The notes beneath the pieces are model-generated. The model saw nothing but the letters and a program-made list of their open reading frames with translations. It did not search any database and had not been told where the DNA came from. From the NCBI RefSeq assembly GCF_040253635.1, contig NZ_JBEJGX010000003.1:2728001-2792000 (forward strand): a stretch of 64,000 bases of DNA. The letters run 5' to 3'. The translations under genes were made by a program, and so were the position numbers. Below are positions 11,949 through 52,973 of the stretch, one piece after another (position 1 is the stretch's first letter; the number at the start of each line of letters is the position of its first letter). This DNA comes from Streptomyces sp. Edi2. Lineage in GTDB: Bacteria > Actinomycetota > Actinomycetes > Streptomycetales > Streptomycetaceae.

Positions 11949-13505
11949 ATGGAGCCGTTGGAAGCTGCGGACCCACGGGCCGCCGGACCGTATCAGCTGC
12001 TGGGACGTCTGGGCTCGGGCGGGATGGGCCGGGTGTTCGTCGGAGAATCCGTGACGGGACGGCGGGTTGCCGTGAAGCTCGTACGGGAGGATCTGGCGGC
12101 CACGCCCGGGTTTCGCGACAGGTTCCGGCGCGAGGCCAAGCTCGCGATGCGGGCGGGCGGCTTCTGGACCGCGCCGGTCGTCGACGCGGACCCGGACGCC
12201 ACGATGCCGTGGATCGCAAGCCAGTACGTCGAAGGCCCCTCGCTCGACGAGCACGTCATCCAGCAGGGCCCGTTGGACGAGCCCGAGGTACGCAGGCTCG
12301 GCACGGGTCTGGCCGAGGCCATCGCCTCGTTCCACCGGGGCGGACTTGTCCACCGCGACCTCAAGCCCTCCAACGTCCTGCTCGTCGACGACGGTCCGAG
12401 GGTCATCGACTTCGGCATCTCCAAGGCCCTGGAGACCACCGGCGGTACCGATCTGACCAAGGCCGGGACCGTCCTGGGCACACCTGGCTTCATGTCGCCG
12501 GAGCAGGCGCTGGGGCAGCCGGTGGGCCCGCCCTCGGATGTCTTCTCGCTCGGCTCCCTGCTCGTCTACGCGGTCACCGGCGCCGGACCCTTCGGTGACG
12601 GGTCCTCCCACGCGCTGTTGTTCCGGGTGGTGTACGAGGCACCCGATCTCAGCGCCGTGCCGGACGGGCTGCGGGGGCTGGTGCAGGACTGTCTGCACAA
12701 GTCTCCGGAGGGTCGCCCCACCGCCGACGCGCTCCTCGCACGTCTCGCGGGCGTACCGCGGGCGCGGGTCCCCGACCCGCGCATCGCGCCGAGGCCCGTG
12801 GCGGAGACCGTTTCCGACGCGGATGCCCTGGCGGCCACCGGACCGCAGCCCGCGAGCTCAACGGCCACGACCGGGCCGTCCAAGGCACCCGCGGAGCCTG
12901 AGGCACCCGCGGCACCCGAGGCGCCCGAGGCACCCGAGGCGGCACCGCGCGGGCATCGGCCGGTTGCCGAACCGCCGGCCACCCTCCCCGCGTTCACCGT
13001 GGAGAAATGGGGCCTCGCGGCGGTCTGGCGCCGCGTGCGGTGGCCGGCCGTTTCGGCGTTGACGATCGCGTGCTTCCTGCAGTTGGTCGGAGTGATGATC
13101 CAGGGGCCCGGGCCCGCGTTCGTGGCGACCGTCTTCGTCCTGCTGCTGCATCTGCTCTACGGGGTGAAGGTTTCGTTGCCGCTCCTCAGCCCCAGGACTC
13201 TGCGGGTCGGAGCAGACGGGCTCTACGTGCGGCACGGCCCGTACACGCTCACGGTGCCCTGGCGGGACATCTCCTCCGTCACGCTCACCGGAAAGCGGAG
13301 AAGGCGCAGCATCACCCTGACGGCGGCCCTCGAAGAAGGAACGAACACCCGGGTCCCCTCCCCGCTCGACGCCGGAACGGGTGTGCTGAAGTGCACGCTC
13401 GTCTCCCCCGCGAAGAACGAGACGGGCGCCCGTCTTTACGGCCTCGATACCGCACTGCGGCACTTCGCGGGCAGCCGCTACCGGTCGCGTCCCGCCGCGG
13501 GCTGA
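11949..13505 (+). CDS. Hanks-type serine/threonine protein kinase with PH-like C-terminus
   Basis: A 518-residue protein kinase. The P-loop GSGGMG (22-27), catalytic lysine in VAVKLV (43), HRDLKPSN (135-142), DFG (154-156) and the GTPGFMSPEQ activation-segment end are all present, so it should be active. An Ala/Pro/Glu-rich linker with repeated APEAPE units follows around residues 300-335. Two hydrophobic segments (about 368-400) form a membrane hairpin, and a C-terminal beta-rich domain (TLRVGADGLYVRHGPYTLTVPWRDISSVTL) resembles bacterial PH-like domains. ATG at 11949 has GGGGAG just upstream; an ATG at 11937 in frame is possible. The lipoprotein gene upstream could encode a functional partner. 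Confidence 0.88.
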   Translation: MEPLEAADPRAAGPYQLLGRLGSGGMGRVFVGESVTGRRVAVKLVREDLAATPGFRDRFRREAKLAMRAGGFWTAPVVDADPDATMPWIASQYVEGPSLDEHVIQQGPLDEPEVRRLGTGLAEAIASFHRGGLVHRDLKPSNVLLVDDGPRVIDFGISKALETTGGTDLTKAGTVLGTPGFMSPEQALGQPVGPPSDVFSLGSLLVYAVTGAGPFGDGSSHALLFRVVYEAPDLSAVPDGLRGLVQDCLHKSPEGRPTADALLARLAGVPRARVPDPRIAPRPVAETVSDADALAATGPQPASSTATTGPSKAPAEPEAPAAPEAPEAPEAAPRGHRPVAEPPATLPAFTVEKWGLAAVWRRVRWPAVSALTIACFLQLVGVMIQGPGPAFVATVFVLLLHLLYGVKVSLPLLSPRTLRVGADGLYVRHGPYTLTVPWRDISSVTLTGKRRRRSITLTAALEEGTNTRVPSPLDAGTGVLKCTLVSPAKNETGARLYGLDTALRHFAGSRYRSRPAAG

Positions 13506-13940
13506 CGACGCCGTACGGCCACTGACGAGACGGGCGGCGCTCCGTGCCCCGTAGGGCGGAAGCCGAGCCGGACGACTGCGCAAGGAGCCGGGGTTTCCCG
13601 GGAGGGCCTGGCACACGGTCGGGTGCGGCACCAATCGCCTCAAGAGACATCGAGCCGTGCCAACCAGGTACGACACACCCGCGGTCCGCTACGAGGCTCC
13701 CGTCCTCGTTGGCAGTCCCTGAGGGGCCCTGCGACCGCGGCACTCCGTTCCTGGCCGGTTCGGAGCCGATGCACACCTCGTTCACGACGGGTGCCGCCTT
13801 CCCGGGACGGCAACACCTGATCCAGTCCCGCCCCATGACCGACGAAGAGCGCACCAGCCGCTGCGGCAACACAAGCCCCAGCTGTTCCAGTTGGCGTGGA
13901 GCCCGGCGACCACCGGCGTTCCGTGAACGGCCCGACCCGG

Positions 13941-24495: not shown

Positions 24496-24569
24496 TGGGG
24501 CGGGTGGGACTCGAACCCACGGCCGACGGATTATGAGTCCGCTGCTCTAACCGGCTGAGCTACCGCCCC
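24496..24569 (-). tRNA. tRNA with CAU anticodon (Met or lysidine-modified Ile)
   Basis: A 74-base cloverleaf: acceptor GGGGCGG paired with CCGCCCC, D-arm GCTC-AGCCGGTTAGA-GC, anticodon loop CTCATAA, T-arm GTGGG-TTCGAGT-CCCAC and discriminator A. CCA is not encoded. The CAU anticodon fits elongator methionine tRNA or the Ile2 species whose C34 is modified; the sequence alone does not decide. Its 3' part is the probable attachment site of the degraded island to its left. Confidence 0.92.
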
Positions 24570-24712
24570 CCACGGCGCGTCGCGCACATTTGTGCGCGCC
24601 GTCTGCCGCAGCATAGCCGCTCATACGATCTGTTGCCCGTGAGGGCTGCCGTCGCGCGACCTCGCACGCCCAAGAGGACTTCGATCACGGGTCGTTCGGT
24701 TCCACGGCACAA

Positions 24713-24737
24713 GAAAAAGGACCCCTTCCGGGGTCCT
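24713..24737 (-). terminator. Rho-independent terminator of the tRNA-Asn pair
   Basis: On the minus strand AGGACCCC, loop GGAA and GGGGTCCT are followed by TTTTT. It is placed about 10 bases after the 3' end of the downstream tRNA-Asn gene, a textbook intrinsic terminator. Confidence 0.9.
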
Positions 24738-24747
24738 CTTCTCTCTG

Positions 24748-24820
24748 CTCCCCCGACTGGACTCGAACCAGTAACCCTCCGGTTAACAGCCGAATGCTCT
24801 GCCAATTGAGCTACAGGGGA
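24748..24820 (-). tRNA. tRNA-Asn(GTT), downstream copy
   Basis: A 73-base cloverleaf with anticodon loop CTGTTAA (GUU, asparagine), acceptor TCCCCTG/CGGGGGA, T-loop TTCGAGT and discriminator G; no encoded CCA. It differs from the copy at 24826-24898 mainly in the anticodon-stem and variable region (CGGAGGG against CGGCAGG). The two are five bases apart and end at a shared terminator. Confidence 0.95.
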
Positions 24821-24825
24821 CCGAG

Positions 24826-24898
24826 CTCCCCCGACTGGACTCGAACCAGTAACCTGCCGGTTAACAGCCGGCTGCTCTGCCAATTGAGCTACAGGGGA
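24826..24898 (-). tRNA. tRNA-Asn(GTT), upstream copy
   Basis: A 73-base cloverleaf with GUU anticodon, same acceptor and T-arm as its neighbour, and a fully paired CCGGC/GCCGG anticodon stem region. Tandem tRNA-Asn genes are probably processed from one precursor. The 219 bases up to the next gene (24899-25117) contain the promoter region but no gene. Confidence 0.95.
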
Positions 24899-47029: not shown

Positions 47030-47734
47030 GGGTACGTCAGCAAGGTCGAGTCCGGCACGCTGCTCCCCAGACCCAGCCAGAAGTTCGCCAAGGGCTGCGA
47101 TCTCACCTTCGGGACGGGCGAGTTGTTCTCGGGCATGCTGGAGAGGATCGACGAATGGGAGCACCCGAGTTGGTTCGTCCCGTACCTCAATCTGGAGCGG
47201 AAGGCTTCGCGGATTCTGACCTACGAGACGAACCTCGTGGCAGGCATCGTTCAGACAGAGGACTATGCACGGTCCGTCTTCCGTGTATCCAACCCTCATG
47301 CGAGCGCGGAGGCGATCGAGGACAAGGTTGCCGCGCGACTACGACGGCGTGAGGTGTTCGGGCGGGACGCTCCGCCGCACCTATGGGTAATCCTTCATGA
47401 GGCATGCCTGCGCACCACGGTCGGTGGCGCCGAGGTCATGGCCGGACAGCTCGACTACCTGCTGACGGTGGGCACATCACCACGCGCCGAACTCCAGGTC
47501 ATGCCCTACTCGGCGGGTATCCCGGCCACGTCCTCAATGCCCTTCATCGTGTTGCGCTTTCCGAGTTCCCGCACGGTGTTGTACACGGAGACCCGGGTAG
47601 GAGCCCGGATGCACGATTCCGAACAGGCGGTCGATGCGGCCCTGGACGACTATGATCTGCTCAGGGCGAATGCGTTGTCCCCGGATGAATCATTGCCCCT
47701 GATCAAGTCTCTGCTGAAGGAGTACCGAGCATGA
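47030..47734 (+). pseudogene. XRE/DUF5753 regulator lacking the start of its HTH
   Basis: The frame carries the end of an XRE helix-turn-helix (YVSKVESGTLLPRPSQKFAK, then CDLTFGTGELF) and a complete DUF5753 domain (WFVPYLNLERKASRILTYET, LVAGIVQTEDYARSVF, VILHEACLRTTVGG). A TGA at 47012-47014 closes the frame upstream, and the first HTH helices are absent. Only a TTG at 47123 or an ATG at 47138 could start translation, giving a protein without DNA-binding domain. Its last bases overlap the next gene by ATGA. Such XRE/DUF5753-DUF397 pairs are common in Streptomyces and resemble toxin-antitoxin-like or developmental (WhiJ-type) modules. Confidence 0.8.
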
Positions 47735-48018
47735 GCCCCGACTTGGATCTCGCCGTCGCCACGTGGGTCAAGTCGTCCTACAGCGAAGGCAACGGCGGGG
47801 ACTGCATCGAGTTTTCACGCGACTTCGCCTGGACCAAGTCGTCTTACAGCGAAGGCAACGGCGGGGCATGCGTCGAGTTCTCCCGTGCCCTCACCGATGC
47901 CCACGGCCTCGTCCCCGTCCGCGACTCCAAGAACCCCGGCGGTCCGGCGCTCGTCTTCCCGGCGGGTGGCTGGTCGTCGTTCATCACCGCGGTCAAGGGC
48001 GGGGAGTTCACGGCCTGA
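47731..48018 (+). CDS. DUF397 protein with a duplicated motif
   Basis: A 95-residue DUF397 protein, partner of XRE/DUF5753 regulators. The domain start WVKSSYSEGNGGDCIEF is immediately repeated as WTKSSYSEGNGGACVEF, so the N-terminal half is tandemly duplicated (63-bp period) before the normal VPVRDSKNPGGPALVF and WSSFITAVKGGEF ends. Its ATG overlaps the upstream stop (ATGA), implying coupled translation. With the upstream regulator beheaded, the pair probably no longer works as a complete switch. Confidence 0.9.
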   Translation: MSPDLDLAVATWVKSSYSEGNGGDCIEFSRDFAWTKSSYSEGNGGACVEFSRALTDAHGLVPVRDSKNPGGPALVFPAGGWSSFITAVKGGEFTA

Positions 48019-48068: not shown

Positions 48069-48412
48069 TCGTCATGTCGGCGTGCCCCGGCTCACCCACC
48101 CGCGGAGGTCGGCGGCGAGCGCGCCGCCCGCCGCCGAGGGGTCGGTACGCGCCGCCCACGCACGCTGCGCCATCCGGGGGAACCCGGTCGTCAACCCGTA
48201 GCGCGGCGTCCCGCCGTTCCCTTCAATCGGTGCTACCGACGGTGGGGTGCCCATCCCCTGTCGGGGGACCATGGACGGCTGCCGGCGTGCTGCAGTTTCA
48301 TCGTTGTTCAGGGCACCCCCCGGCAGGTCCGCGCGCCCGGACAGCTTCCTGCCCTCCGGCGTGCAACGGCCCCCCGCCTCCTCTGTGGAGCCTTCGAAAG
48401 GGGCTGTCCAAC

Positions 48413-50728
48413 ATGGCACTCGCTCTCACTCTCACCCCGTCCTCCCTCACGGCGGGCCAGACGTTCCAAGCCGCTGTCACCGGTGCCGTCGTGGGAGAGT
48501 TGATCACTTTCACGTATGACGCGGCACTCCCGCAGACAGCGGTCGCCGACCTCTCCGGCAATGCGAGCGTCACCTTCACAGCGAGCACGACGGACGTGGT
48601 GGTCGCCGCCGGTCCCACCAGTGGTGCCGCGACGGCGACCGTGACCGTGACGCCGGCGACGAACTGTGTGGTCACGCTGGAGTCCACACCGGCCAACCCG
48701 GCCCCCGGCCAGCCCGTGACGATCACCGCCACCGTCACCTGCGGCGGGGTGCCCGTCGCGGGAGCGACCGTCGTCTTCGCCACGGTCGGCGGGTCCCTGG
48801 GTGTCGGCGTCACCACCGCCGCGGGCACCGCCACCCTCACCACCAGCCTGCTGCCGCTCGGGCTCAACGTCGTCACGGCCACCGTGATCGCCGCCACCAC
48901 CACCTGCACCTGTATCGGCATCGCCGCCTCGATCGACATCACCGTCACCGCGTTGTCGGACTGTGTGGTCACGGTGACCTCCTCGCCCGCCAACCCGGCC
49001 TCGGGCCAGCCGGTGACCTTCACCGCCACCGTCACCTGCAACGGGGCACCAGTCGAAGGCGCGACGGTACTCTTCGCCTCCACCAGCGGGTCCCTGGGTG
49101 TCGGCGTCACCACCGCCGCGGGCACCGCCACCCTCACCACCAATCTGTTGCCGCTCGGGCTCAACGTCGTGACGGCCACCGTGATCGCCGCCACCACCAC
49201 CTGCACCTGTATCGGCATCGCCGCCTCGGTGAACGTCACCGTCACCGCGCCGCAGAACTGCGTGGTCACGGTGACCTCCTCGCCCGCCAACCCGGCCTCG
49301 GGCCAGCCGGTGACCTTCACCGCCACCGTCACCTGCAACGGGGCACCCGTCACCGGCGCAACCGTCCTCTTCGCCACCACCAGCGGCTCCCTGGGCGTCG
49401 GCGTCACCACCGCCGCAGGCACCGCCACCCTCACCACCAGCCTGCTGCCGACCGGGCTCAACGTCGTCACGGCCACCGTCATCGCGGCCACCACCACCTG
49501 CACCTGCATCGGCATCGCCGCCTCGGTGAACGTCACCGTCACCGCGCCGCAGAACTGCGTGGTCACCCTGACCTCCAGCCCCGCCAACCCGGCCGCCGGA
49601 CAGCCGGTCACCCTCACCGCCACCGTCACCTGCGGCGGCGCACCCGTCACCGGCGCAACCGTCCTCTTCGCCACCACCAGCGGCTCCCTGGGCGTCGGCG
49701 TCACCACCGCCGCAGGCACCGCCACCCTCACCACCAGCCTGCTGCCCGCCGGGGCCAACGTCGTCACAGCCACCGTGATCGCCGGCACCAGTACCTGCAC
49801 CTGCATCGGCGTGGCCGCGACAGCGACCGTGAACGTCACCGCCGCGCAGAACTGCGCCGTCACCCTGACCTCCAGCCCCGCCAACCCGACCGCCGGACAG
49901 CCGGTCACCCTCACCGCCACCGTCACCTGCAACGGGGCACCCGTCGTCGGCGCCTCGGTACTCTTCGCCACCACCAGCGGCCCGCTCGGCATCGGCGTCA
50001 CCAACGCGTCCGGCCAGGCCACCGCCACCACCACCACGCTGCCCGCCGGCAGCACCACGGTCACCGCCACCGTGCTCGCCGGTACCACCACGTGCACCTG
50101 CGTCGGTGTTGCCGCAACGGCGACCGTGACCGTCGGAGCCGCACAGAACTGCGCCGTCACCGTGACGTCCACGCCGGCCAAACCGACCGCCGGCCAGCCG
50201 GTGACCGTTACGGCCACCGTCACCTGCGGCGGCGTACCGGTCCCGGGCGCGACCGTGCTGTTCAGCACCACCAGCGGCCCGCTCGGCATCGGCCTCACCA
50301 ACGCGTCCGGCCAGGCGAGCGTCATCACCAGCACGCTGCCGGCCGGCAGCACCACGGTCACCGCGACCGTGCTCACCGCCACCGGCAGCACCTGCAACTG
50401 CGCGGGTTCCTCCGGCACCGGAACCGTGACCGTGGGCGGGGCGACGGGGCTCACCGCGCACCCGGCCTGCTACCGGCTCAACGTCCCCCCGCTGCCCTGG
50501 GCCTTCGCCACTGCCACGTTCAGCGCGAGTGGTGCAACTCCCGGCGCGACGGTCACCTTCCACCTGAACGGAGCCGCCGGCCCGGTGGTATGCACCGCCG
50601 TCGCCGATGCGAGCGGGAACGCCAGCTGCACGGCGAACCTCACCGTCGGGCAGGTGCTTTCCTCCAGCTACACCGCGACCAGCGGCGGCGCCTCCTCGTC
50701 CAACACCCTGTCCATCTGCCTCACCTGA
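48413..50728 (+). CDS. Cysteine-rich protein with six Ig-like repeats
   Basis: A 771-residue protein made almost entirely of beta domains. A 83-residue N-terminal domain (MALALTLTPSSLTAGQTFQA) is followed by six tandem units of exactly 99 residues, beginning NCVVT/DCVVT at codons starting 48662, 48959, 49256, 49553, 49850 and 50147. Each contains PANPASGQPVTFTATVTCNG, PVTGATVLFATTSGSLG and TVIAATTTCTCIG, i.e. a bacterial Ig-like (Big_3/invasin-like) fold with four cysteines (C, C, CxC). A different cysteine-containing domain (HPACYRLNVPPLPW to ICLT) closes it. There is no signal peptide or membrane helix despite the adhesin-like build. AAAGGGG precedes the ATG. Two small genes follow on the same strand. 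Confidence 0.88.
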   Translation: MALALTLTPSSLTAGQTFQAAVTGAVVGELITFTYDAALPQTAVADLSGNASVTFTASTTDVVVAAGPTSGAATATVTVTPATNCVVTLESTPANPAPGQPVTITATVTCGGVPVAGATVVFATVGGSLGVGVTTAAGTATLTTSLLPLGLNVVTATVIAATTTCTCIGIAASIDITVTALSDCVVTVTSSPANPASGQPVTFTATVTCNGAPVEGATVLFASTSGSLGVGVTTAAGTATLTTNLLPLGLNVVTATVIAATTTCTCIGIAASVNVTVTAPQNCVVTVTSSPANPASGQPVTFTATVTCNGAPVTGATVLFATTSGSLGVGVTTAAGTATLTTSLLPTGLNVVTATVIAATTTCTCIGIAASVNVTVTAPQNCVVTLTSSPANPAAGQPVTLTATVTCGGAPVTGATVLFATTSGSLGVGVTTAAGTATLTTSLLPAGANVVTATVIAGTSTCTCIGVAATATVNVTAAQNCAVTLTSSPANPTAGQPVTLTATVTCNGAPVVGASVLFATTSGPLGIGVTNASGQATATTTTLPAGSTTVTATVLAGTTTCTCVGVAATATVTVGAAQNCAVTVTSTPAKPTAGQPVTVTATVTCGGVPVPGATVLFSTTSGPLGIGLTNASGQASVITSTLPAGSTTVTATVLTATGSTCNCAGSSGTGTVTVGGATGLTAHPACYRLNVPPLPWAFATATFSASGATPGATVTFHLNGAAGPVVCTAVADASGNASCTANLTVGQVLSSSYTATSGGASSSNTLSICLT
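48662..50443 (+). repeat. Six tandem 297-bp coding repeats
   Basis: The Ig-like units repeat with an exact 297-bp period. Units 2, 3 and 4 are nearly identical over long stretches while units 5 and 6 have diverged (SGPLGIGVTNASGQA replacing SGSLGVGVTTAAGTA). The array is prone to expansion, contraction and assembly collapse. Confidence 0.9.
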
Positions 50729-50814
50729 GGCGCGACCCCGGCTCGCACACCGCGGCCGGAAACGCCGTACCGCGGCCCACCTGAACCGGCCCGTCCGCCA
50801 AGGGAGTTGCCGAG

Positions 50815-50915
50815 CGGCACAGCACAGCAGTCGACGAAACAGTCGGCACGGCAGTCGGCACAGCAGTCGACGAAACAGCCGAACCGCCGACGAACCGCCG
50901 ACGAACCGCCGACGA
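50815..50915. repeat. Short tandem repeats after the Ig-repeat gene
   Basis: AGTCGACGAAACAGTCGGCA-type units (50820-50880) pass into three exact 11-bp GAACCGCCGAC units (50881-50913). They lie in the 335-base spacer before the small CNCGGG gene, which otherwise contains only the hairpin at 50931. Confidence 0.75.
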
Positions 50916-50930
50916 AACAGCCGGCAAAAC

Positions 50931-50965
50931 GGCCGTCCCCCGTAGTGCAAGTACGGGGGACGGCC
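50931..50965 (+). terminator. 14-bp perfect hairpin
   Basis: GGCCGTCCCCCGTA (50931-50944) pairs exactly with 50952-50965 around the loop GTGCAAG. No T-run follows. It lies 203 bases past the stop codon of the Ig-repeat gene, so it could partly terminate that transcript before the two small genes. Confidence 0.7.
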
Positions 50966-51063
50966 GCTGGACCCCAAGGATAGGCCCCGGGGGCACGGCG
51001 GTACGCCTGCCGGCCGACGGGGCCGTTGGCCCTCATCGCACAACGTCACAGAAGGAGCGGAAC

Positions 51064-51222
51064 ATGGGCTGCAATTGCGGCGGCGGTGCCCGCCCGACCG
51101 TCATCATCTACCAGCTGAACCTGCCCGATGGCACCGTGCGCCAGTACTACACCTGGCAAGAGGCCGACGCGGCCAACCAACGCGCGGGCGGCGTCGGCAC
51201 CATCCTCGTCATCAATCAGTAG
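51064..51222 (+). CDS. 52-residue CNCGGG protein, actinophage-like
   Basis: A 52-residue protein reading MGCNCGGGARPTVIIYQLNL, then PDGTVRQYYTWQEADAANQR and a final GGVGTILVINQ. The CNCGGG start followed by a beta strand, a xxPDG turn and an Ala-rich helix matches a type of small protein I know from actinobacteriophage genomes (DUF7196-like), function unknown. AGAAGGAGCGGAAC immediately precedes the ATG, an excellent ribosome-binding site. Two vicinal cysteines suggest metal binding or a disulfide. It lies between the Ig-repeat gene and a DUF1360-like gene on the same strand, 39 bases before the latter. Confidence 0.75.
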   Translation: MGCNCGGGARPTVIIYQLNLPDGTVRQYYTWQEADAANQRAGGVGTILVINQ

Positions 51223-51261
51223 CGGCCGGCTGGGTCCCTTCACGGTGACGGGGTGGATCTC

Positions 51262-51549
51262 ATGAGCCTTGTGGCGTTTCTCCTTTCCCTCGGCGCGACG
51301 TGCCGCATCACCAGATTCCTGACGAAGGACTCGCTCGCGGCGGGATTCCGTTCCTGGGTGGCCGGCCGCTTCGGCGACGATTCCAAACCCGCCTATCTGG
51401 TCAGCTGCAGCTGGTGTTCGAGCATCTGGGTGGCTGCCGTCATGGCCCCGCTCGGGCACTGTACCGGAGGGACAACCGGATTCCAGATCGTCGCGACAGC
51501 GTTGTCCCTCTCCTACCTCGCCGGGCTGGCTTCCCGGTGGCTCGATTGA
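51262..51549 (+). CDS. DUF1360-like small membrane protein
   Basis: A 95-residue membrane protein. SLVAFLLSLGATCRITRFLTKD at the start (family-like RLTRL/TKD region), the central motif YLVSCSWCSSIWVAAVMAPL (compare CPWCLGVWVA in DUF1360 proteins) and a final hydrophobic segment FQIVATALSLSYLAGLASRW give two or three membrane helices. DUF1360 proteins occur in phages and sporulating bacteria; function unknown. GGGGTGG lies upstream of the ATG at 51262; a GTG three codons earlier is the alternative. It belongs to the Ig-repeat/CNCGGG group and converges with the alcohol dehydrogenase gene. Confidence 0.78.
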   Translation: MSLVAFLLSLGATCRITRFLTKDSLAAGFRSWVAGRFGDDSKPAYLVSCSWCSSIWVAAVMAPLGHCTGGTTGFQIVATALSLSYLAGLASRWLD

Positions 51550-51624: not shown

Positions 51625-52694
51625 CTACGCACCACCCGCAGCGAAGTGAATCAGCGGCTTGATGATTCCGTCCTCTTTCGAGGCCATCATGGCAAAGGCC
51701 CGTTCGATCTCGTCGAAGCCGAATTCGTGCGTGGTCATCGGGGTGGGGTCGACCTTTCCGTTCTCCAGGAGCCGGAAGATCCGCCGGAGCCACCCCCGGC
51801 CACCGCGGTTGAACCCGGCGTAGACCTGCTTGTCGGACATGCCGTAGCCGAAGGGCTCCAGGGGATCCGCAGCGGCTCGTGCACCTCGTCGTGGTACCCG
51901 ACGTTGGAGATACGGCCTCCCGGCTTGGTGACCCGGAAGGCCGCCTCCCAGGTCTGCGGGGTGCCAAGTGCCTCGATGGCGGCGTCGACCCCCTGGCCGT
52001 CCGTCAGCTCCATGATCCGCGCGACCGGATCGCACCGGGTGTGGTCGACGATCAGATCGGCGCCGAAGCGGCGGGCGAGTTCCTGGCGGGCGGGAACCGA
52101 CTCGACGGCGATGACGAGGCCCGCGCCGAGCAGCCGGCAGCCGATCGTCGCCGACAGCCCGACCGCGCCCTGGGCAAAGACCGCGACGGTCTCGCCCAGG
52201 GCGAGTTCCGCGTGTTCGGCGGCCACGAACCCGGTGGAGAGCATGTCGGTGGCGTACAGCGCCTGGTGGTCGGAGAGCGAGGCGGGAATCGGGGCGAGGT
52301 TGGCCTCGGCGTTGTTGACGAGGAAGTACTCGGCGAGGTTCCCGTCCCGCCGGGTGGTGAATCTGGCGCCTCCCAGCATCCGCCCCTGGCACTGCGAGGA
52401 GAACCCGCGCTGACAGGAATCGCACTGGAAGCAGGGCGTGATCCCGCCCACCGCGACGCGCTCGCCCTCGGCCAGCCCTTCGACGGCCGACCCGAGCGCA
52501 TGGACCACACCGACCGCCTCGTGCCCCAGCGTCACATCCGGCGCGACCGGCATCGCGCCCCTCATGGTGTGCACATCGGTGGTGCACACCATGGCGGCGG
52601 TGGTGCGCACCACCGCATCAGTGGGGCCCGGTTCGGGGACCGGCTTCTCGATGACGGCGACTTCCCCGACCCTCCGGAGAACGAAAGCCCTCAC
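51625..52694 (-). pseudogene. Zinc-dependent alcohol dehydrogenase, frameshifted
   Basis: A medium-chain alcohol dehydrogenase of about 356 residues. VRAFVLRRVGEVAVIEKPVP, the catalytic-zinc segment MVCTTDVHTMRG and LGHEAVGVV, PCFQCDSCQRGFSSQC (one of the usual four structural cysteines is changed), a Rossmann FAQGAVGLSATIGCRLLGAG and GGRISNVGYHDEV are in one frame. The C-terminal PLEPFGYGMSDKQVYAGFNR ... DEIERAFAMMASKEDGIIKP is in another. One G is missing in the run near 51863 (plus strand). It could be real decay or a sequencing error. GTG at 52692-52694 is the start. It is tail-to-tail with the DUF1360-like gene. Confidence 0.8.
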
Positions 52695-52973
52695 GTCTGC
52701 GTACCTGCCGTTCGGTGCGGGGAGCGAGCGGAGACCGCCGGCCGGCCCCGGACCGGGCTCCGGACCAGGCCCTGGCCGCTCCGGCCGTCCGTGCGGCGGC
52801 CCCGGAGCAGGGCCGTGCCGTGCTCGCGGATACGGATTCGGATATGGGTACGGGTGTGGGCGTGGGTGTGGCGCATGATCCGGGTGTGGCGCATGCCCTC
52901 GCTCTTCCCGCAGGGGAGGCCCGGCGGTGTGTCGGGGCGTCATCTTCCGCCCGTTCGGCCGACCGCCCGGTGG

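Follow-up and report, generated by a model that had tools for sequence, protein, structure and literature searches.

A conserved Streptomycetaceae gene module of signal-less beta-sandwich arrays and two phage-type small proteins, with a probable structured RNA leader before the Ig-array genes

Background

The Ena pili, endospore appendages of the Bacillus cereus group, are surface fibres with inter-subunit disulfides, and their beta-sandwich subunits lack a Sec signal and are produced in the cytosol. Known actinobacterial cis-regulatory RNAs include Actino-pnp, msiK and mraW (PMC2864571). This study concerns a locus of Streptomyces sp. Edi2 in which a gene for a long array of immunoglobulin-like (Ig-like) domains, without a visible signal peptide, is preceded by a candidate RNA leader and followed on the same strand by genes for two small proteins of the DUF7196 and DUF1360 families (referred to below as the pair). 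The locus lies in a stretch of 64,000 nucleotides (contig NZ_JBEJGX010000003.1, positions 2,728,001 to 2,792,000), which is called the window here and whose first letter is position 1. The original prediction, which was made from the sequence of the window, had pointed out the three genes, and the RNA leader was absent from its account.

Results

Conservation of the gene pair

The two small genes were found to be kept together and, in most loci, to lie beside a gene for a beta-sandwich array without a signal peptide. Many Ig-array genes, whether close to the pair or at other sites of the genome, begin with a conserved leader that is able to cover the ribosome-binding site.

When 84,980 species genomes were searched with the 52-residue DUF7196 protein of the window, 13 loci were identified, 11 in Streptomycetaceae (Streptomyces, Kitasatospora and Wenjunlia) and two in Rhodococcus, the latter being counted among phages. 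A DUF7196 family profile (A1) matched 25 of 392 Streptomyces genomes; one of these (G230), with a weak partial match and no DUF1360, was dropped, which left 24 carriers, and another (G333) had two DUF7196 copies. After removal of one duplicate (L044 = L006), the window, those 11 Streptomycetaceae loci and 24 further fetched loci made up a set of 35 loci that had been found via DUF7196 alone. In 33 of the 35, an open reading frame (ORF) matching DUF1360 with at least 116 bits was located on the same strand within 1 kb of DUF7196, the two exceptions being L061, with a fragment only, and L013, with none. In 31 of the 35 loci an array-like ORF, defined as Thr-rich with few charges and at least 250 residues long, stood no more than 2 kb from the pair, and array-like regions numbered 32 in 163 kb near the pair versus two in 437 kb of the far flanks of the same loci. 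The three genes grouped together by the original prediction are thus neighbours in other genomes as well.

An independent search with DUF1360 matched 46 of the 392 genomes at E ≤ 0.001, and the 24 that reached at least 115 bits were identical to the 24 DUF7196 carriers; the lower-scoring copies include L271 and L272, which by eye stand beside portal- and terminase-like genes. Among 316 genomes drawn from the class, the DUF7196 profile matched only the genome of the window itself, and since the large scans scored the best 10-21 candidates per genome, absences in them are no proof. The order within the pair varies, DUF7196 preceding DUF1360 in some loci and following it in others. The gene arrangement is far beyond chance, and it is very probable that the Ig array, DUF7196 and DUF1360 constitute a conserved module of Streptomycetaceae.

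Degraded copies of the module were also seen. In G333 a second copy at 8.39 Mb (L061) has an array that by eye is of the ice-binding type, with both DUF7196 and DUF1360 broken, and the same genome keeps an intact copy (L046). In G399 a leader and an Ig array are followed just downstream by a 31-residue DUF1360 fragment (L208, 9.895-9.906 Mb), a decayed module, and an intact pair is retained at 6.45 Mb beside a gene for a protein with TIG domains.

Exchange of the array

Pfam was run on 11 array-like proteins, 10 of which matched Ig, ice-binding or TIG models (Big_3_5, Big_1, TIG, Ice_binding); the Big_1 match of L007 was just below the cut-off, and the remaining arrays were assigned by composition and by eye. 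Cys-rich Ig arrays that precede the pair on its own strand give the order Ig-DUF7196-DUF1360 in the window, L003, L004, L009, L043, L047 and L048, and the order Ig-DUF1360-DUF7196 in L005, L006, L007, L008, L046 and the degraded L061. The arrays of L005 and L006 start with an ice-binding-like DUF3494 domain, identified by Pfam in the former and by alignment in the latter. TIG proteins were located upstream on the opposite strand in L011, L045 and L049-L056; seven of these 10 divergent TIG ORFs have 0-1 Cys and the others 2, 3 and 6, counted in the longest ORFs. Cys-rich Ig arrays of about 1,830-1,900 residues lie downstream of the pair in L059, L060, L063 and L065, where they contain 67-72 Cys, and are cut or interrupted in L058 and L064, and a six-repeat TIG protein without Cys lies downstream in L066. 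The array is therefore interchangeable: depending on lineage it is an Ig array, an ice-binding domain with Ig domains, an Ig array of about 1.8 thousand residues or a Cys-poor TIG array. Because the TIG arrays are Cys-poor or Cys-free, most of them having 0-1 Cys, disulfide formation is unlikely as a purpose shared by the arrays and was set back as a candidate explanation.

Proteins encoded in the window

The Ig-array protein (48413..50728, + strand) consists of 771 residues arranged as a first domain, six 99-residue Big_3_5 repeats (Pfam E 2e-39) and a C-terminal domain. The Cys spacing of 25-55-2-17 (once, in the last repeat, 25-56-2) gives a period of 99 residues over six repeats at residues 85-663, and each repeat has four Cys in the pattern C...C...CxC with one CxC (CTC or CNC) at its end. 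Together with four Cys in the C-terminal domain and none in the first domain (about residues 1-80), the total is 28. The translation and the Cys spacing thus bear out the length, repeat number and cysteine pattern that had been read from the sequence at the outset. A PDB sequence search with this protein gave no match.

No signal peptide was seen in the Ig-array protein when its start was read directly, the first 12 residues having no K or R and hence no charged n-region. The reading frame in the window is open for 125 codons upstream of the start, with possible start codons inside, and in the homologue L007 an in-frame stop is located five codons before MAVVV with no start codon in between, which excludes a missed Sec signal in L007. 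The other array starts that were read (four more Ig, two divergent TIG, one convergent TIG and five giant Ig arrays) are likewise free of K and R in their first 12 residues. A Sec signal at an overlooked upstream start, which would have refuted the original prediction, was accordingly not found. No cell-wall anchor domain (LPXTG or other) was among the Pfam matches, and none was seen by eye at the C-terminus (SICLT). Hence the Ig-like or TIG stalk of a Sec-exported fibrillar adhesin was found, and its signal peptide and wall anchor were not.

The second gene (51064..51222, + strand) encodes a 52-residue protein that begins with MGCNCGGG and matches DUF7196 (PF23826) with 48.6 bits, above the curated cut-off of 27. 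The third (51253..51549, + strand) encodes a DUF1360 protein (PF07098, 22.2 bits, above the curated cut-off of 21; phrog_781, E 3e-19) with a CxWC motif, and its ORF has 98 residues, or 95 if counted from the ATG at 51262, where homologues start. Pfam thereby confirmed the small cysteine-motif protein and the CSWC-containing small membrane protein described after the Ig gene. An AlphaFold model of the DUF1360 protein is all-helical (helices 3-21, 24-37, 42-46, 50-68 and 72-94; mean predicted local distance difference test score, pLDDT, 95.5), and in this model three helices look like membrane spans. The DUF7196 model (pLDDT 82.5) is a small beta-beta-alpha-beta fold whose CNCGGG tail is loose. 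The C, W and C of CxWC are invariant across 40 DUF1360 proteins, and in 34 DUF7196 proteins the first Cys is invariant and the second nearly so; these conserved Cys (MxCNCG and CxWC) may bind metal or each other.

RNA leader of the Ig-array genes

Conservation of the DNA ahead of the Ig genes extends over about 130-180 nt up to the ATG. In the window this region contains a predicted structured 5' untranslated leader (48228..48412, + strand), which scored 100.7 bits with a covariance model (R1) that was built from 12 leaders, that of the window among them. A -10-like box TTCAAT (48222..48227, + strand), a putative promoter element, directly precedes it, and when upstream DNA was set side by side, TNNAAT was seen before the leader in class-1 Ig loci.

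The 5' arm of helix A, GGGTGCCC (48245..48252, + strand), pairs with the 3' arm GGGCACCC (48311..48318, + strand), and the 5' arm of helix B, CCTGTCGGG (48257..48265, + strand), which has covarying pairs, with CCCGGCAGG (48319..48327, + strand). Because the 3' arm of B lies outside A, on its 3' side, B crosses A and the two form a pseudoknot. In helix R the 5' arm ACGGCCCC (48366..48373, + strand), an anti-ribosome-binding-site, pairs with GGGGCTGT (48400..48407, + strand), which includes the Shine-Dalgarno GGGG; in the window an alternative 5' arm, GGACAGCTTC, scores best against this 3' arm. The consensus of class 1 consists of helix A (GGGTGCCC/GGGCACCC), helix B (CCTGTCGGGG/CCCCGRCAGG), an inner hairpin and helix R (GCAGCCCC/GGGGCTGC) with the Shine-Dalgarno GGGG.

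Pair counts were made on 14 leaders, in which 98.3% of 303 cells were paired and three pairs, two in helix B and one in helix R, were changed on both sides. Out of 500 shuffles none reached the observed covariation score, three reached the count of doubly changed pairs and 36 the count of pair types, and sliding the helix partners lowered pairing to 35-59%. Helix A was paired in all leaders with letters on both sides, and being invariant within class 1 it is no argument for an RNA. The mismatches in helix B were one G-G in two leaders and a C-C in one. A duplex of at least six pairs over the Shine-Dalgarno sequence was possible in all 14 class-1 leaders, and the best-scoring duplex of the window, L043 and L003 used a 5' arm other than that of helix R.

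Ten leaders before other long Ig arrays (most starting MSTTTVTSTPNPSVFGQ or similar) form a second class, with helix A as GCCCATAC/GTATGGGC and helix B mostly as CCTCTG/CAGAGG; the duplex adjoining the Shine-Dalgarno sequence has 7-8 pairs in eight of the ten and five pairs in two. Over 24 leaders of both classes, which are 29 rows less five in which the rule did not find the arm, the first pair of helix B was CG in 11, UA in 11, UG in one and an unpaired CC in one, these sequences being few and many of them related. By eye, ACCGAC before helix A could pair alternatively with GTCGG of helix B, and this alternative pairing may act as a switch.

Rfam 15 contained no family for the leaders tested, with two chance-level matches outside the window leader at E ≤ 10, and a known RNA class was rejected on this ground. 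Both a covarying structure and an expression platform, in the form of sequestration of the ribosome-binding site, were identified, as in cis-regulatory RNAs. In our view the leader is highly likely to be a true structured RNA.

Distribution of the leader

A strict sequence pattern of the leader was found in six of the 392 genomes, and the covariance model was used instead. R1 matched 22 places in 20 genomes, and each of the 19 best matches (E ≤ 2.7e-4) was followed at a short distance by the ATG of an Ig array that shows no visible signal peptide; 13 of the 19 were outside the training set, and 10 of these 13 were in carriers of the pair. The pair was carried by 15 of the 18 genomes with leader and array, versus 24 of 392 overall (Fisher p 2e-18, with kinship ignored and with part of the R1 training set coming from pair carriers). 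Where the pair stands beside a TIG gene, an Ig array with a leader was detected at another site in nine of nine scanned genomes (G055, G135, G189, G204, G219, G396, G399, G411 and G423). Upstream of the DUF3494-type arrays of L005, L006 and L061 the leader was not seen.

The genome of the window has 45 TIG domains at nine other places (at about 0.06, 0.13, 3.10, 3.16, 3.73, 3.83, 6.42, 8.34 and 9.00 Mb). The TIG arrays of L202 and L205 have no visible signal peptide and, by eye, a beta-propeller-like start, and a GGGCTGCCCATCCCTC element upstream of them resembles the leader core. A short TIG-leader pattern gave 17 matches in this genome versus 13 for the reversed control, and one of three exact matches (L209) falls inside a coding-like ORF. 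In L007 a weak match to the leader model (13415-13522 of that locus, - strand, E 0.005) shortly precedes a TIG-like array (12428-13237). There is thus a hint that TIG arrays share the leader, and a shared leader is not claimed beyond the visual similarity in L202 and L205 and this one weak model match.

Phage relatives of the pair

DUF1360 was located 4.6-7.4 kb upstream of DUF7196 in all 19 viral contigs with DUF7196, one of these DUF1360 matches (L100) being weak. The assignment of CNCGGG- and DUF1360-type proteins to phage families in the original prediction agrees with this and with the family matches. The gene order in Rhodococcus phage Tonitrus runs DUF1360, portal (phrog_776), head protein (phrog_859), DUF7196, a small gene and the major head protein, and in Gordonia phage Baddon DUF1360 stands immediately before the portal gene. 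No array-like ORF was seen across the 19 viral contigs. Of the 20 chromosomal proteins in a tree of 40 DUF1360 sequences, 19 formed one group (support 99/98); the protein of L066, also beside a TIG array, was placed among phage sequences with weak support, and L066 may represent a second uptake from phage that again ended beside a TIG array.

The Ig array itself matched no PHROG family and had no relative among 50,697 phage records (tblastn) or in the viral contigs, so a phage origin of the Ig protein was not supported. Judged from these sequence relationships, the pair is of phage type and the array is bacterial. The suggestion that the trio is a domesticated phage-structure module is therefore supported for the two small proteins and not for the Ig protein: a phage-type pair has been joined to a bacterial array, in place of a whole phage-structure module.

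Neighbourhood in the window

Eight flanking genes were scanned against PHROGs; four matched, namely an aldo/keto-reductase-like protein (function unassigned), a DUF5753 DNA-binding protein, a DUF397 protein (function unassigned) and an alcohol dehydrogenase. Terminase, portal, capsid and tail genes were not found among the eight and no match was structural, in keeping with the view already taken that this is not an obvious prophage. The region 47123-48018 contains a DUF5753 ORF without the N-terminal DNA-binding part that DUF5753 proteins usually carry, followed by a DUF397 protein whose core motif occurs twice; L043 and L004 likewise have DUF397-like ORFs close to the module. An alcohol dehydrogenase-like gene adjoining the trio (51625-52943, - strand) is split over two frames (ORFs of 402 and 320 residues), which is either a sequencing error or a broken gene. 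A cluster of three tRNA genes is located at 24496-24898 (- strand).

Discussion

The most economical explanation, which we put forward tentatively as somewhat short of probable, is RNA-gated synthesis of a fibre that starts in the cytosol and is handled at the membrane by the phage-type pair. The leader would gate translation of the array in response to a ligand, a protein or a physiological cue, and the array would fold as an adhesin-like fibre produced in the cytosol. The DUF1360/DUF7196 pair might then dock the fibre at the membrane or aid its crossing by a non-Sec route, reusing a function that phages may have at the membrane close to where portal and head are assembled. Perhaps the pair was taken up twice by Streptomycetaceae from the head region of actinophages. 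More doubtful is the wider proposal of a new display or export system in which a riboswitch-like RNA would control signal-less Ig and TIG fibres, and a pair from the phage head region would carry interchangeable fibres towards the surface. Export, location and RNA switching are all put conditionally here, as predictions from sequences and models.

Several observations weigh against RNA-gated synthesis of a fibre handled by the pair. The minimum-energy fold of the leader is ordinary compared with shuffles (z -0.99). The three weakest R1 matches (L244, L245 and L247) are not before a signal-less array; L245 and L247 lie upstream of proteins that by eye have a signal peptide, and since these look secreted the RNA, if real there, is perhaps not limited to signal-less arrays. 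Leader and array occur without the pair in G176, G108 and G145, and nine of the 24 carrier genomes have no leader match under strict filters that lose weak matches. No array is near the pair in L010, L012, L013 and L057; in L012 a lost array gene is still marked by its leader and first codons, and for L057 another site of the genome (L232) holds a leader with an Ig array. In L062 a distance of 1.9 kb separates the TIG array from the pair, and the repeat-like ORF closest to the pair, which has no Pfam match, apparently carries a signal peptide. Comparison of DUF1360 and DUF7196 with solved structures in PDB, by fold and by sequence, gave nothing at E ≤ 0.001. Finally, many carrier genomes are close relatives, and the locus counts are not independent.

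Alternatively, the cytosolic array might be freed by dying hyphae or coat the spores that these form, with the pair providing a phage-like accessory membrane function. Phage proteins of the portal and head neighbourhood are also freed by lysis, and such release would suit the lack of a signal peptide in the array types whose starts were examined; no lysis or structural gene was among the scanned flanking genes of the window, and we regard this explanation as unlikely. A role in anti-phage or superinfection interference, in which the pair would disturb portal or head assembly or DNA entry and the array would be a decoy or scaffold, appears somewhat less likely again. Both families do surround portal and head genes in actinophages, and a module in 24 of 392 genomes is patchy, as defence genes often are, but PADLOC found no family for five module proteins, and interference leaves the frequent adhesin-like neighbour and the swapping of domain families unexplained.

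It is also conceivable that a Cys-rich array is matured by a disulfide or metal relay between DUF1360 (CxWC) and DUF7196 (CNC), since their Cys motifs are invariant or nearly so and each Ig repeat has four Cys, the giant Ig arrays reaching 67-72. The Cys-poor TIG ORFs and the Cys-free array of L066 speak against such thiol chemistry, as do the 19 phage contigs that hold both genes without an array, and we rate it as improbable. Least probable by far is a decaying prophage remnant or a chance neighbourhood: the small proteins are of phage families and some copies have decayed (L061, L013 and G399 at 9.90 Mb), but the two genes of the pair have stayed side by side, in either order, in Streptomyces, Kitasatospora and Wenjunlia, several kinds of array stand beside it in Streptomyces and Kitasatospora, nearly all chromosomal DUF1360 proteins group together, and no structural phage gene was among the scanned flanking genes of the window.

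Our literature search found no paper on this system, on DUF7196, or explaining signal-less Ig and TIG arrays of Streptomyces, and one paper in which DUF1360 appears. We call the combination new, its protein parts coming from known domain families, because it does not pass as a prophage or as a Sec-exported fibrillar adhesin, PADLOC had no match for five of its proteins and no DUF7196 paper was found. Signal-less long Ig and TIG arrays are encountered repeatedly in these genomes, and the module supplies both partners for them, the two phage-type proteins, and a regulator, the RNA leader. As partners and regulator can be deleted or mutated in common laboratory strains, it becomes testable how such arrays get outside the cell or act inside it. 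In addition, two unnamed phage families gain a first context beyond phages, and one candidate regulatory RNA class is added.

Among described systems, fibrillar adhesins with Big or TIG stalks and DUF3494 ice-binding adhesins have domain kinds in common with the module arrays, which differ from fibrillar adhesins in that no signal peptide and no wall-anchor Pfam match were seen and in having the leader RNA and a phage-type pair alongside. The likeness to Ena pili is one of working principle only; the hosts differ, those of the module forming no endospores, and no Ena-like Pfam match turned up in the general Pfam runs, no search aimed at Ena having been made. Like the known cis-regulatory RNAs of actinobacteria, the leader is a structured 5' leader with a likely effect on expression, and no Rfam 15 model matches it. 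The closest relatives of the pair are those of actinobacteriophages, DUF1360 (PF07098/phrog_781) and DUF7196 (PF23826/phrog_2069), which are of the same families and have the same Cys motifs and a shared neighbourhood; in phages the pair flanks portal and head genes and has no array, whereas the chromosomal pair is without those genes and has an array alongside.

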